Shown one piece after another: positions 33,425 through 39,995 of a stretch of DNA of 64,000 nucleotides. The stretch's first letter is position 1; each line of letters starts with the position of its first letter. The stretch comes from Catellatospora bangladeshensis (lineage in GTDB: Bacteria > Actinomycetota > Actinomycetes > Mycobacteriales > Micromonosporaceae), in the NCBI RefSeq assembly GCF_016862575.1, contig NZ_BONF01000007.1, positions 1-64,000 of the forward strand. Direction: 5' to 3'. A program made the position numbers and the translations under genes. The notes under the pieces were generated by a model, which saw only the letters and a list, made by a program, of their open reading frames with translations, was not told where the DNA came from and made no database searches.

Positions 33425-34846
33425 ATGACGATGCTCAGCGAGCCTGACGCATTGACCGGGCCGTCCGTCCACTGCGATCTGCCCGGGCCCCGTTCCGCCG
33501 AGCTGCTCGCGCGTCAGCAGCACCGCGAGTCGAACGCGCGTACCTACCCCCGCAACCTCCCCATCGCCATCGCCGAGGGCGCCGGCTCCTTCGTCCGCGA
33601 CGTCGACGGCAACGTCTTCATCGACTTCCTTACCGGCGCGGGCGTGCTCTCGCTCGGCCACAACCATCCTGAGCTGGTACGCGCCGTGACGCAGCAGCTC
33701 GGCACACTCACTCACGCGCTGGACTTCCCGACCCCCGCCAAGGATGCGTTCACCGAGGCGCAGCTGTCCATGCTGGCCCCTGACCTGCGCGAACGCATGC
33801 GCGTGCACTTCTGCGGCCCCACCGGCGCCAACGCCGTGGAGGCGGCGATCAAGCTGTGCAAGACCGCCACGGGCCGGGGCGACATCATCTCGTTCCAGGG
33901 CGGCTACCACGGCTGCAGCCACGCCGCGATGGCCGCCTCCGGGCTGGTCTCGCAGAAGCGCCCGATCGCCAACGGGGTGCCCGGCGTGCACTTCTTCCCG
34001 TACTCGTACTGCGCCCGCTGCCCGCTGGGCCTGCGCCCGGACACCTGCGAGACCAACTGCGCGGGGCTGCTGGAGAAGTCCCTGCTCGACCCCAACGGCG
34101 GGGTCGCGCGGCCGGCCGCGGTGATCCTGGAGCTGGTGCAGGGCGAGGGCGGGGTCATCCCGGCCGCGCGCGACTTCGTCCGCCGGGTGCGGGCGCTGAC
34201 CCGTTCGCTGGACATCCCGCTGATCGTGGACGAGGTGCAGACCGGCTGCGGCCGCACCGGCACCTGGTTCGCGTTCGAGCACTACGACATCGAGCCGGAC
34301 GTGATCGTGGCGTCGAAGGCGCTGTCGGGTATCGGCACGCCGGTCGCGCTGATCATGTACGACCAGCGCCTCGACTCCTGGCAGCCCGGCGCGCACACCG
34401 GCACCTTCCGGGGCAACCAGCTCGCCTTCGCCGCGGGGGTGGAGGCGGTCCGGATCCTGCACCGGGACCAGGTGCTGGCCAACGTACGCGAGCGCGGGCA
34501 GCAGGTGGAGCAGCGCTTCGCGATCCTGCGCGGCCACCCGGCGGTGCACGAGGTGCGCGGGCTGGGCCTGATGTGGGGCGTCGAACTGGCCGACCCGGGC
34601 GACGGCCGCTCGGCGGGCCAGCTTGCCCGGCAGGTGCAGGCCCGGGCCCTGCGCCGCGGCCTGATCGTCGAGCTGGGCGGCCGGGACGACTGCGTCATCC
34701 GGATCCTGCCGCCGCTCAACGTCACCGCCGAGGTGATCGACACCGCGTGCGGCATCGTGCTCGACGCGATCGAGGAGTCGTACGCGACCCCCGCCGGCGG
34801 CGCGGACCTGACGCCCGCCGCCGCGGGAGGCGACGGCATGGGTTGA
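33425..34846 (+). CDS. L-2,4-diaminobutyrate:2-oxoglutarate aminotransferase (class III PLP)
   Basis: Probably converts aspartate semialdehyde plus glutamate to L-2,4-diaminobutyrate. It has 473 residues. The class III fold shows [68 protein letters not shown] and [18 protein letters not shown]. The PLP lysine is Lys298 in [24 protein letters not shown] is typical of diaminobutyrate (Dat/EctB) aminotransferases. The CARCPLGL cysteine region also fits Dat. The ATG has GAGGAGA upstream. It lies 127 bp before the Pls-like synthetase on the same strand and likely supplies its monomer. There are no ectoine genes nearby. Confidence 0.88.
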
Positions 34847-34853
34847 TGCCGGG

Positions 34854-37900: not shown

Positions 37901-39995
37901 CTACCCGCTCTACAGCTTCCGCTACTGGCTCGCCTCGACGATCTCCGGGATGACCAACTCCGCGCTGTTCATGCGCCTGTTCGGCGACAGCTCGTACGTG
38001 GTGAACTACCTGCGCTGGATCGGGGTCGACCTGCAGCAGGTGGTGCAGACCGGATCGAACTTCGGCCTGGAGTTCCGGTTCGACACGCCGTTCCTGTGCA
38101 CCGTCGGCACCGGCACGATGGTGTCCGACGGCCTGACCATGATCAACGCCGACTACTCGCACACGTCGTTCAAGATGTCGCGGGTCATCGTCGGCGCCCG
38201 CTCGTTCGTCGGCAACGACGTCTCGTTCCCGGCGGGCCACGCCGTCGGGCAGAACGTGCTCTACGGCACCAAGGCGGCGGTGCCCACCGACGGCCCGGTC
38301 CGCCACGACACCGGCCTGCTCGGCGCGCCGTCGTTCCCGATCGCGCGGGTCGTCGCGAGAGAGGCCGGCTGCGAGGCGCCCACCGGCGACGCGCTGCGCC
38401 GGGCACTGGCCCTGAAGAACCGGTACAACCTGCGCTCGATGGCCTGGTTCCTGTTCGTGGGCTGGGTGTCCGGCGCGGTCGGGCTGGTGGTGCTCGCCGC
38501 CGCGCTGGACAACTACTCCGAGTGGGGCGTGCTGGTCCTCCCCGCCGCGATGGTGGTCATGCTGGTGTTCCAGCTGTGCTGGAGCGTGCTGGTGGAGCGG
38601 ACGGTCGGCAGGTTCCAGCGGCTGCGCCCGCGGCGCTGCTCCATCTACGACCCGTACTACTGGTGGCACGAGCGGCTGTGGAAGCTGGAGGCGCCGGTCC
38701 CGTTCGCCGGCACCCCGTTCCGCCCGATGATCTGGCGGCTGCTGGGCGTGCGGATGGGCAAGCGGGTGTACGACGACGGCGTGTACATGTCCGAGCGGAC
38801 CATGATGACCATCGGCGACGACTGCACCCTCAACGCCCGGGTGGTGATCCAGTGCCACTCGCAGGAGGACGGCATGTTCCGGTCCGAGCCGACCGTGATC
38901 GGCTCCGGTGCGACCCTCGGCGTGCGCTCGTTCGTGCACTACGGCGTCACCGTCGGCGAGAACGCGGTGCTCGGCGCGCACTCCTTCCTGATGAAGGGCG
39001 AGCAGATCCCCGACGGGGAGGACTGGACCGGCAACCCGGCCCGCGCGGTGTGCGAGCCCGTGCCCGTGTCGGCGCGGCGGACCCGGCCCGTGCCGACCCC
39101 GTCCGGTCCCCGCCCCGGCTCGCGCGCCGCGGCCCGTGCCCTGCTCACCGAGCTGCGGGCGACGCCCTCGCCGCGCCGCCGCCGGCCCGCCGGGGTCGCC
39201 GTGTCGCTCTTCTCGCTGGCCGAGTGCCGGCGCCGGGAGGCCGAGCTGGCCCAGTTCCTCAGCGGCGACGAGCGGGCCGAGGCCGACGGCCTGCGCTCCA
39301 CCGAACGGCGCAGCTCCTTCGTCATCTCCCGGGCGCTGGTCCGCATGATCCTGTCGATCGAGTGGCACGGCGAGGTCGCGCCGCGCAACTGGACGCTGCG
39401 CTACGGCGGCCAGGGCAAGCTGACCGTGTGCGGGCCGATCGCCGGGCTCGACCTGAGCGTCTCGCACACCGACTCGGTCATCGCGGTCGCGGTGTCCGAC
39501 GCGTACGACATCGGGGTGAACCTGGAGCCCGCGGCCCGTGACGACGCCGCCGTGCTGCCCTGGGCGGCGCTGTCCGCCTCCGAGCACGCCCGCCTGGCCG
39601 GCAGCGACGACCAGGGCGAGCAGCTGCTGCGGCTGTGGACGCTGAAGGAGGCGTTCGCCCGGTGCGCGGGCGAGGTCAGCTTCGAGCAGCTCGACGCGCG
39701 GCTCGACCCGCTGCAGGTGATCGGCGGCGGCGCGCCCGGCCGCCAGCGCTTCTGGTTCCACCAGGAGCAGTGGGGCGAGGAGGTCGAGCAGCACTGGGTG
39801 ACCGTGGCCGTGCGGCGGCGGCCCGCCAGCCGGCGCGGACGCCGGTCCACCGGCCGCCAGTCCCGCCCCGCTGTGAGCAAGTCGGTGGGCCGCCCGGCCC
39901 GCCCGGCCGACCGCTCCCACGCCGTACACATGCAGATCCTGGCCAACGGCCGGGTCACCGCCCGCGACGTGACCGCACCCGACACCCGCGGCTGA
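34974..39995 (+). CDS. Pls/PosA-type membrane NRPS (A-T-TM-C1-C2-C3) with C-terminal phosphopantetheinyl transferase domain
   Basis: Probable synthetase of a cationic homopoly(amino acid), 1673 residues. The adenylation domain spans ~55-540 (YTSGSTGRPKG near 197, GRIDTQVKIRGYRIE near 440, SDKADRK near 530). Aligned by eye to GrsA its specificity residues read D-F-E-C-L-S-V-V-T-K, the Glu suggesting a basic side chain. The thiolation serine is Ser591 (GADSLLMA). Six membrane helices and three hexapeptide-repeat C domains (about 770-870, 985-1120, 1240-1360) match the poly-lysine synthetase plan. Residues ~1405-1590 form a PPTase (LSVSHTDSVIAVAVS, IGVNLEPAA, WTLKEAFARC), where the first metal Asp is Asn1516. 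The ATG at 34974 follows GGAGGGAG. Confidence 0.9.
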   Translation: MSTRVLDVDDLPEFPDVEPGGSGLVLTCPGHGHEPRWQPGERLSQLFEQQCDRLRRYDRAEQLAVDTGEEALTYDELDARANQLARHLIRHGARPGDRIALLFDQAVQSYVGMLAIGKIHAAYVPLDTGFPADRLAYIVADSGSRLVLSLSHLRDHLAEVTGAEVLCVDEAGAELAATPEQRLAAEERGEPADELAYIIYTSGSTGRPKGVAVEHAAICNFVRVAAELYGVRPGDRMYQGLTIAFDFSIEEIWVSWMVGATLVPKPGGASLLGRDLWEFLTAREITAMCCVPTLLATLDEDLPDLRFLLVSGEACPQDLVTRWHRPGRRFLNVYGPTEATVTATWTPVHPDKPVTLGLPLPTYATVILDPDESRALPPGEVGEIGIAGIGLAVGYVNRDDLTERAFIPDFLDIPNNPSGRIYRTGDLGRVNETGEIEYLGRIDTQVKIRGYRIELTEIESVLLQVPGVAQAVVDVHRPEPGVTELVGYYSLRKDTVALDRPQIYAWLRDRLPGYMIPTYLEQLDVIPMLPSDKADRKSLPPPTNRRTAAQADAAEPATPVEQGYAEVLAEIVRVDRVGVESHFFEEVGADSLLMARFCARVRQRPDLPSVSMRDVYVYPTVRALAAAVAPVAASSAEAPPRSAPVRARPARRASSLQYAACGLFQLLLGLGSAVMGGYLLIFAFRFMAAADGYLELYLRSAAFSTVGFVILAVYPIAMKWLLIGRWKEQEIPLWGLTYLRFWYVRMCMGASRLLMFYGTPLYPWYLRLLGAKIGRNVVILSPVMPICTDLLTIGDNTVIRKDCYFLGYRAQAGYIQTGRITIGSDVIVGEHTALDINSAIGDGARLGHSSTLPPGYAVPPGESWQGMPPQPGHPGLPPVPARSCGWLRKTVYSGVKIANQVLTRGPLVFGGLVALVTQVPMLKGLVDGKPFSLSSMIYLDLVLVSAVLFVTALLLGLASIVVIPRVLNLLWKPDTVYPLYSFRYWLASTISGMTNSALFMRLFGDSSYVVNYLRWIGVDLQQVVQTGSNFGLEFRFDTPFLCTVGTGTMVSDGLTMINADYSHTSFKMSRVIVGARSFVGNDVSFPAGHAVGQNVLYGTKAAVPTDGPVRHDTGLLGAPSFPIARVVAREAGCEAPTGDALRRALALKNRYNLRSMAWFLFVGWVSGAVGLVVLAAALDNYSEWGVLVLPAAMVVMLVFQLCWSVLVERTVGRFQRLRPRRCSIYDPYYWWHERLWKLEAPVPFAGTPFRPMIWRLLGVRMGKRVYDDGVYMSERTMMTIGDDCTLNARVVIQCHSQEDGMFRSEPTVIGSGATLGVRSFVHYGVTVGENAVLGAHSFLMKGEQIPDGEDWTGNPARAVCEPVPVSARRTRPVPTPSGPRPGSRAAARALLTELRATPSPRRRRPAGVAVSLFSLAECRRREAELAQFLSGDERAEADGLRSTERRSSFVISRALVRMILSIEWHGEVAPRNWTLRYGGQGKLTVCGPIAGLDLSVSHTDSVIAVAVSDAYDIGVNLEPAARDDAAVLPWAALSASEHARLAGSDDQGEQLLRLWTLKEAFARCAGEVSFEQLDARLDPLQVIGGGAPGRQRFWFHQEQWGEEVEQHWVTVAVRRRPASRRGRRSTGRQSRPAVSKSVGRPARPADRSHAVHMQILANGRVTARDVTAPDTRG

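Follow-up and report, generated by a model that had tools for sequence, protein, structure and literature searches.

We examined a 64,000-nucleotide stretch of DNA from the soil actinomycete Catellatospora bangladeshensis (contig NZ_BONF01000007.1, positions 1 to 64,000; hereafter the window) that carries, side by side, a gene for a diaminobutyrate aminotransferase (dat) and a gene for a Pls-type polymer synthetase (pls) whose C-terminal domain is related to phosphopantetheinyl transferases (PPTases). Taken jointly, the evidence tips towards a synthetase of poly-L-2,4-diaminobutyrate (poly-L-Dab) that would be primed in trans and would keep its own pseudo-PPTase for a non-catalytic role. The features on which this reading rests are as follows (A, adenylation; PCP, peptidyl carrier protein; TM, transmembrane; C1-C3, the three C domains).

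33425..34846, + strand: dat, class-III aminotransferase of the diaminobutyrate--2-oxoglutarate transaminase family, 473 residues (TIGR00709, Aminotran_3)
34974..39995, + strand: Pls-type synthetase, A-PCP-(TM/C1-C3)-PPTase-like, 1673 residues, open frame (TIGR02353)
35106..36593, + strand: A domain, residues 45-540 (AMP-binding 1.4e-79 at residues 61-395)
35709..35723, + strand: A-domain specificity residues D246-F247-S-I-E250, from the sequence, motif-matched to the positions of PosA Asp217, Met218 and Glu221
36669..36857, + strand: PCP with the GADSL serine, residues 566-628 (PP-binding 9.1e-08)
36951..39041, + strand: Pls/PosA terminal polymerisation domain (TM helices, C1-C3), residues 660-1356 (TIGR02353)
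39042..39203, + strand: linker from the polymerisation core to the PPTase-like domain, residues 1357-1410, variable in length and sequence among orthologues
39204..39812, + strand: PPTase-like domain, residues 1411-1613 (stand-alone-only profile, HetI model, residue tables)
39519..39521, + strand: codon of Asn1516, a position held by Asp in all 24 stand-alone PPTases compared
39813..39992, + strand: basic C-terminal tail, residues 1614-1673 (alignment of eight orthologues)

The dat product passes the TIGR00709 cut-off (434.4 bits against 401.6), matches Aminotran_3 at 8.7e-85, and falls under the cut-offs of the PRK06938, PRK06931, PRK09264 and EctB models. It is the sole TIGR00709 match above cut-off in its own genome (8.8 Mb in 115 contigs). 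A gap of 127 bp (34847 to 34973) separates dat from pls on the same strand, and both the coordinates and the TIGR00709 match agree with a preliminary description of the window, which had placed a Dat-type aminotransferase at that distance upstream. The synthetase starts with an ATG at 34974; a further in-frame GTG lies at 34911.

The synthetase matches TIGR02353, the model of the Pls/PosA terminal domain, at 617.6 bits (cut-off 423.1), with model positions 1-695 of 695 covered. Together with the AMP-binding and PP-binding domains, this full-length match upholds its earlier assignment to the Pls/PosA synthetases; that it acts on a basic amino acid, most likely Dab, is supported as well (see below). 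The structural relatives of the A domain in the PDB include epsilon-poly-L-lysine synthase (7wew) and PosA (8g95), and the Gly, Ala, Ser and Leu of the GADSL motif are invariant across 12 aligned sequences. We infer six membrane helices and three C domains from the TIGR02353 match and the published domain description; Pfam Hexapep passes by itself in just one stretch (residues 1306-1339).

The C-terminal domain is a true relative of Sfp-type PPTases. A profile built from stand-alone PPTases only (14 non-redundant sequences, what remained of 24 after those more than 80% alike were removed) matches the window domain at 108.0 bits, against 6.1 for the highest-scoring shuffle (400 were made, 349 of them scored). 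The resemblance is therefore one of homology, and a chance likeness to PPTase motifs is ruled out. The HetI model NF042922 also matches the domain (1.8e-12, under its cut-off), and Pfam ACPS (PF01648, cut-off 25) scores 19.7 bits with the whole protein, 23.3 with the C-terminal fragment and 24.3 in the genome search. The PPTase motifs that had first drawn attention to the domain, VSHTD and WTLKEAF, thus lie within a domain whose ancestry the profile establishes.

The active site of this domain is altered. We take Sfp residues His90, Asp107, Glu109, Glu151 and Lys155 to correspond to synthetase residues 1498, 1516, 1518, 1559 and 1563, where the window has H1498, N1516, E1518, E1559 and R1563, with K1558 also present. 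The Mg triad Asp-Xxx-Glu is lost in the window, Asn1516 replacing the Asp. Motif 3 of group II PPTases has the form W-x-x-K-E-x-x-x-K-x-x-G-x-G-L; the window reads WTLKEAFAR, with Arg for the last Lys, and the GxGL is gone. The canonical residue stands at all five positions (H, D, E, KE and K) in 24 of 24 stand-alone PPTases, a redundant set collected by a motif search that tolerated the altered letters of the fused copies and required the first motif-3 Lys. That comparison and one alignment took in eight of the 11 fused Catellatospora copies; the other residue tables took in all 11. A second genome, G051 (locus L053), also has Asn at the 1516 position, so a read error is unlikely, and we reject an assembly or read error as the source of Asn1516.

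Across the 11 Catellatospora copies, the five catalytic positions read H5/Q5/L1, D9/N2, E8/G3, E9/A2 and R11. The His is thus lost in six of 11, the second Mg ligand in three and the third in loci L044 and L047. The first four catalytic positions (the His and the Mg triad) all vary in a domain in which 97 of 203 columns are invariant. In two group II PPTases, replacing either the first or the third Mg ligand by Ala is reported to abolish activity, and the second ligand to be dispensable (PMC4103896). By this rule the triad is broken in four of the 11 copies (the window, L053, L044 and L047), and we consider it probable, judging from these residues, that the PPTase-like domain of the window has lost all or nearly all catalysis.

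A fused domain that is still a working PPTase and primes its own carrier in cis, where one slow intramolecular turnover suffices, is in our view unlikely. Such a domain would explain why the window copy still has the His, both Glu residues and the motif-3 Lys-Glu on a fold of certain PPTase homology. It would also fit G896, a genome of another family in the same order, in which the fused copy keeps all catalytic residues compared, and three of the 11 Catellatospora copies, which do likewise except at the last Lys. There is precedent for an integrated PPTase domain in the enediyne polyketide synthase CalE8 (PMC3107222), and in one Aureimonas and two Shinella records a PPTase gene adjoins pls or comes soon after it. 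These points are set against Asn at the first Mg ligand in the window and G051, a position at which, as at the third, Ala abolishes activity in characterised PPTases (PMC4103896), the His missing from most of the genus, and the Arg common to all its copies. The losses in L044 and L047 make cis priming hard to hold for the genus. Of the activating domain in cis envisaged in the preliminary description, the PPTase-derived domain is real; self-activation is doubtful, given Asn1516, Arg1563 and an active site altered genus-wide.

The domain is nonetheless under constraint, usually weaker than that on the A domain, and the catalytic residues are not where the constraint falls. In a neutral test (500 simulations per orthologue pair, with the same set of base changes), it showed fewer amino-acid changes than every simulation in seven of seven pairs simulated; for L044 and L047, both without the third ligand, 19 changes were observed and 35.9 expected. 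In every one of the 11 Catellatospora copies the frame stays open across the domain, and two invariant blocks, RAL-RMILSIEWHGEVAPR and WFHQEQW, sit outside the catalytic motifs. The rate of nonsynonymous change (dN) is higher in the domain than in the A domain in nine of 10 pairs. Between the window and L041 it is 0.139, against 0.050 for the A domain and 0.055 for the TM/C part (2.5-2.8 times); the TM/C part outpaces the domain in the pairs window-L044 and L044-L047. The C-terminal tail evolves close to neutral.

These high rates, the near-neutral tail and the several different losses at catalytic positions are what one would expect of a functionless relic: a once useful fusion whose extension decayed after priming had moved to trans enzymes and is retained just because it folds. 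A relic is hard to reconcile, on the other side, with 11 open frames, with the deficit of changes in every simulated pair and with invariant blocks away from the catalytic motifs, and we think this explanation doubtful.

The substrate can be predicted from the A-domain pocket and from gene context. The core motif of the window synthetase is FDFSIEE, with Phe at the second specificity position and the Asp and Glu kept. Asp217 and Glu221 of PosA are described as well conserved in the Pls/PosA enzyme class, and Phe at the second position as a feature of poly-diaminopropionate (poly-Dap) and poly-Dab synthetases alike, groups that are hard to separate by sequence (PMC10522769). We compared pocket and gene context in 73 loci with flanks, the window excluded. 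A Dat- or EctB-like aminotransferase occurs in the flanks of 21 of 24 Phe-type loci and 0 of 37 Ala-type loci; the remainder comprises five loci without a readable motif or aminotransferase, four proteins lacking an A domain in frame, one Gly-type locus, one Ser-type locus, and L070 (aminotransferase, no motif). Three Phe-type loci lack one: L071, L142 and L048, on whose contig the sequence upstream of the synthetase frame runs for ~1.4 kb before it ends.

The flanking aminotransferases were found by similarity to the window dat (E up to 1e-60), and eight of the 22 outside the window were classified. Seven of these eight exceed a curated cut-off: L045, L046, L059 and L064 are EctB-type (TIGR02407), and L044, L052 and L134 are Dat-type (TIGR00709). 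The eighth, from L069, is partial and falls under the TIGR00709 cut-off. The recruitment of two subfamilies with the same activity, Dat and EctB, beside the same pocket type argues for Dab. We therefore regard it as highly probable, on this sequence-level evidence, that the operon makes a Dab polymer, most likely gamma-poly-L-2,4-diaminobutyrate, a cationic isopeptide homopolymer; the Phe pocket and the aminotransferase linkage thus favour the product that had been proposed for the window at the outset. A different polymer unit is improbable: the Phe pocket is also of the reported poly-Dap type, and the poly-Dap and poly-Dab groups are hard to tell apart (PMC10522769), but all 11 Catellatospora loci (the window and 10 others) have a Dat-like gene next to the synthetase, and Dat- or EctB-like genes flank 11 of the 14 other Phe-type loci. 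No DapF-like racemase occurs among nine neighbouring genes scanned, and the genome has a single DapF gene, on another contig, and just one Dat protein that passes the cut-off. A D-Dab product like that of PddA and PddB (see below) is thus unlikely.

Further PPTase genes, an AcpS-sized one among them, pass the Pfam cut-off in all 11 Catellatospora genomes; of the stand-alone PPTases read, every genome has one or more with intact motifs. Trans priming is therefore available. In the pathway that we favour, Dat would turn aspartate semialdehyde into L-Dab, and the A domain would adenylate Dab and load it onto holo-PCP, the PCP having been primed in trans by a stand-alone PPTase of the same genome. 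The membrane-bound TM/C1-C3 core would then polymerise Dab iteratively through side-chain amide bonds, as for epsilon-poly-lysine. The C-terminal domain would descend from a working Sfp-type PPTase fused to the synthetase, its active site having eroded in Catellatospora. The resulting pseudo-PPTase may stay soluble, tethered by the variable linker, and might serve a non-catalytic role such as docking the PCP beside the membrane core. Near its end the fast-evolving tail has an MQILA-G-VTAR-like segment, partly kept in the eight aligned orthologues and possibly a short docking motif. We propose more tentatively that the synthetase was once self-priming and that its built-in PPTase is now a pseudoenzyme kept as a non-catalytic docking or chain-length module. 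The sequences could be arranged as a series within one order, from G896 with all catalytic residues, through Catellatospora copies with a formal triad, to Catellatospora copies with broken triads, the window among them.

Several observations weigh against a pseudo-PPTase primed in trans. Since the second Mg ligand is reported to be dispensable (PMC4103896), seven of 11 Catellatospora copies (six of the L039-L043/L055 group, plus L054) keep a formal triad, and we have withdrawn the view that all copies in the genus are dead. L041, L042 and L043 keep the His and all three acidic residues, and the window itself keeps the His and both Glu residues. Nine of the 11 fused domains exceed the Pfam PPTase cut-off, the exceptions being the window (24.3) and G051 (22.8). 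The effect of Asp to Asn at the first ligand is argued by analogy with Ala mutants of other PPTases, and only a single turnover per molecule is needed in cis, so that a very weak PPTase might do. The Pro of the GKP motif, present in 23 of 24 stand-alone PPTases, is Leu in Catellatospora; since G896 has the same Leu, the change marks the fused group and is no sign of decay, and we have dropped it as such. The pair formed by the window and L053, with five amino-acid differences in the domain, falls outside the seven simulated pairs, and purifying selection could stem from folding alone. That L044 and L047 inherited a shared loss of the third ligand is not certain, as the two pair in the A-domain tree and not in the PPTase-domain tree. 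The AlphaFold model of the domain is poor (mean pLDDT 54.3).

The fusion is narrowly distributed. It is present in 11 of 11 Catellatospora genomes and in G896; the same profile does not find it in any of the other 189 genomes among the 200 sampled in the Catellatospora family. It occurs in two of 397 genomes of the order sample (the window and G896), in one of 296 of the class sample (the window) and in one of 266 of the phylum sample (G896), and G896 is the sole case among 112 genomes of its own family; these taxon samples overlap, and in many genomes the searches scored part of the candidates. Pls/PosA terminal domains as such were found, at E up to 1e-50, in 134 of 300 genomes sampled in the family and in 25 of 396 sampled in the phylum. 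Among 63 non-Catellatospora loci with flanks, none has a PPTase in the synthetase frame, and four (L064, L066, L160 and L165) have a PPTase frame nearby. Beyond Actinomycetota, coverage extended to plasmid records and two Chloroflexota loci; 26 plasmid records match the polymerisation core and 0 of 26 matches reach into the PPTase part. A C-terminal PPTase, which the preliminary description had allowed might be found in many known Pls/PosA proteins, is thus rare in the samples taken, and we reject the idea that it is common in the family.

In G896 (L182), a dat gene (748 bits) lies immediately upstream of the gene for the fused protein, whose A domain is Phe-type. The PPTase motifs of this protein, VSISHT, VGVDVE and WTLKEAFVKCTGAG, keep all five catalytic residues, including the last motif-3 Lys, and the GxG, while Ser replaces the final Leu of GxGL. 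The A+PCP tree places the G896 synthetase with unfused Arthrobacter loci (support 0.965) and apart from Catellatospora, so we reject a single vertical fusion event. The fused PPTase domains are alike (48% identity, 192.6 bits), the next match in the order sample being a stand-alone PPTase at 72.7 bits. Since the G896 synthetase sides with Arthrobacter but the fused domains are mutually closest, the domain has been gained, lost or exchanged apart from the rest of the protein. We also reject a simple fusion with a neighbouring gene as seen in near unfused relatives, no PPTase gene flanking L045, L046, L048 or L052. A fairly close stand-alone PPTase homologue in genome G1048 lies on a 4-kb contig that has no pls gene.

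Nine plasmid regions were opened. Shinella loci L171 (8010-8675) and L172 (8010-8666) have a separate PPTase gene with a 4-bp overlap with the pls stop codon, and in Aureimonas L176 a PPTase gene (8611-9264) follows pls with a GNAT gene between. These PPTases are EntD-like (typed by eye) with intact motifs. None of them is matched by a profile of the fused copies at E up to 10; their linkage to pls thus seems independent, and we reject them as the source of the fused domain. In L064, from another genus of the Catellatospora family, the neighbourhood of a Phe-type pls and an EctB-type aminotransferase gene includes a PPTase gene (14079-14768; Npt/PptT-like, under curated cut-offs).

Other arrangements were seen among the loci compared. 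In the Pls-like protein of L070 (7982-12226), the frame holds a PCP and terminal domain, an A domain was not found, and the ~570 residues that extend the C terminus match no Pfam model. Some Pls proteins are split or lack the A domain: L049, from Ktedonosporobacter, has one frame for A and PCP and another for PCP and terminal domain, and L148, L152 and L153, of the same class as the window, and L175 (Streptomyces sp. CdTB01) encode Pls proteins of just ~850-950 residues.

Poly-Dab synthetases with a neighbouring dat are already known (PMC8117764), as are PPTase domains in iterative synthases (CalE8, PMC3107222). PldA of Streptomyces celluloflavus is a gamma-poly-L-Dab synthetase, and dat and the aspartate kinase gene ask appear in a gene-context figure legend that leaves the locus unspecified (PMC8117764). 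The window synthetase resembles PldA in its A-PCP-TM/C architecture, the nearby dat and the predicted Dab substrate. It differs in its PPTase-like domain, the term phosphopantetheinyl being absent from the main text of that paper, and in the lack of ask among the nine neighbours scanned. PddA, with the racemase PddB, is the gamma-poly-D-Dab synthetase of Streptoalloteichus hindustanus (PMC8225329), likewise a Pls-type Dab polymer synthetase; unlike that system, the window locus has no DapF-like racemase among the nine neighbours, and the sole DapF gene is elsewhere in the genome. PosA, the delta-poly-L-ornithine synthetase of Acinetobacter baumannii (PMC10522769), is homologous, with a terminal membrane domain and the same pocket Asp and Glu, but has Met where the window has Phe, and neither PPTase nor phosphopantetheinyl appears in the main text describing it. 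CalE8 (PMC3107222) likewise works iteratively and carries its PPTase domain on the synthase chain; it differs in being a polyketide synthase whose PPTase is taken to modify its own carrier, whereas the Mg triad of the window domain is altered. The Shinella and Aureimonas plasmid loci share the physical linkage of a PPTase to a Pls/PosA synthetase, but as separate genes for EntD-like PPTases with intact motifs. Our searches of open-access PMC papers turned up no prior description of a Pls/PosA enzyme with a fused PPTase, intact or degenerate.

The cationic polymers made by Pls-type enzymes are antimicrobial; to our knowledge, how their carriers are primed and their chain lengths set is little understood. 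A fusion that keeps its catalytic residues in one lineage and has decayed in another provides paired proteins for asking whether priming in cis matters. The same pairs bear on whether a dead PPTase fold can act as a carrier-protein docking domain. The association of the Phe pocket with Dab aminotransferases of two subfamilies gives a working rule by which poly-Dab producers can be predicted.

Among named loci, the closest come from seven Catellatospora genomes; five of these are 86-87% identical in the best segment, with nearly the entire protein covered. The TM/C core of the window is 91% identical to that of L041. L053 (genome G051) is 99% identical to the window in the A domain and 97.5% in the PPTase-like domain, and ~59% in the TM/C core. 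The differing part spans approximately residues 615-1370 (window numbering) and takes in the end of the PCP; its edges fall past the PCP serine and in the linker preceding the PPTase-like domain, and it reads as a natural cassette swap. No close donor of the L053 core was found among the loci compared.

The nine neighbouring genes scanned encode, upstream, an HhH-GPD-like protein, a GNAT protein, a major facilitator superfamily (MFS) transporter and an LppX_LprAFG lipoprotein and, downstream, an AlaX-like editing protein, a DUF3099 protein, an Indigoidine_A (PsuG-like) protein, a DUF3039 protein and a PfkB kinase. They look unrelated, so the operon appears to consist of dat and pls alone. The absence of ask applies to these nine genes, the rest of the genome not having been searched for it. 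The MFS transporter gene adjoins the LppX_LprAFG lipoprotein gene on the - strand (30760-33118), a pair that we liken to the mycobacterial LprG-P55 pair.

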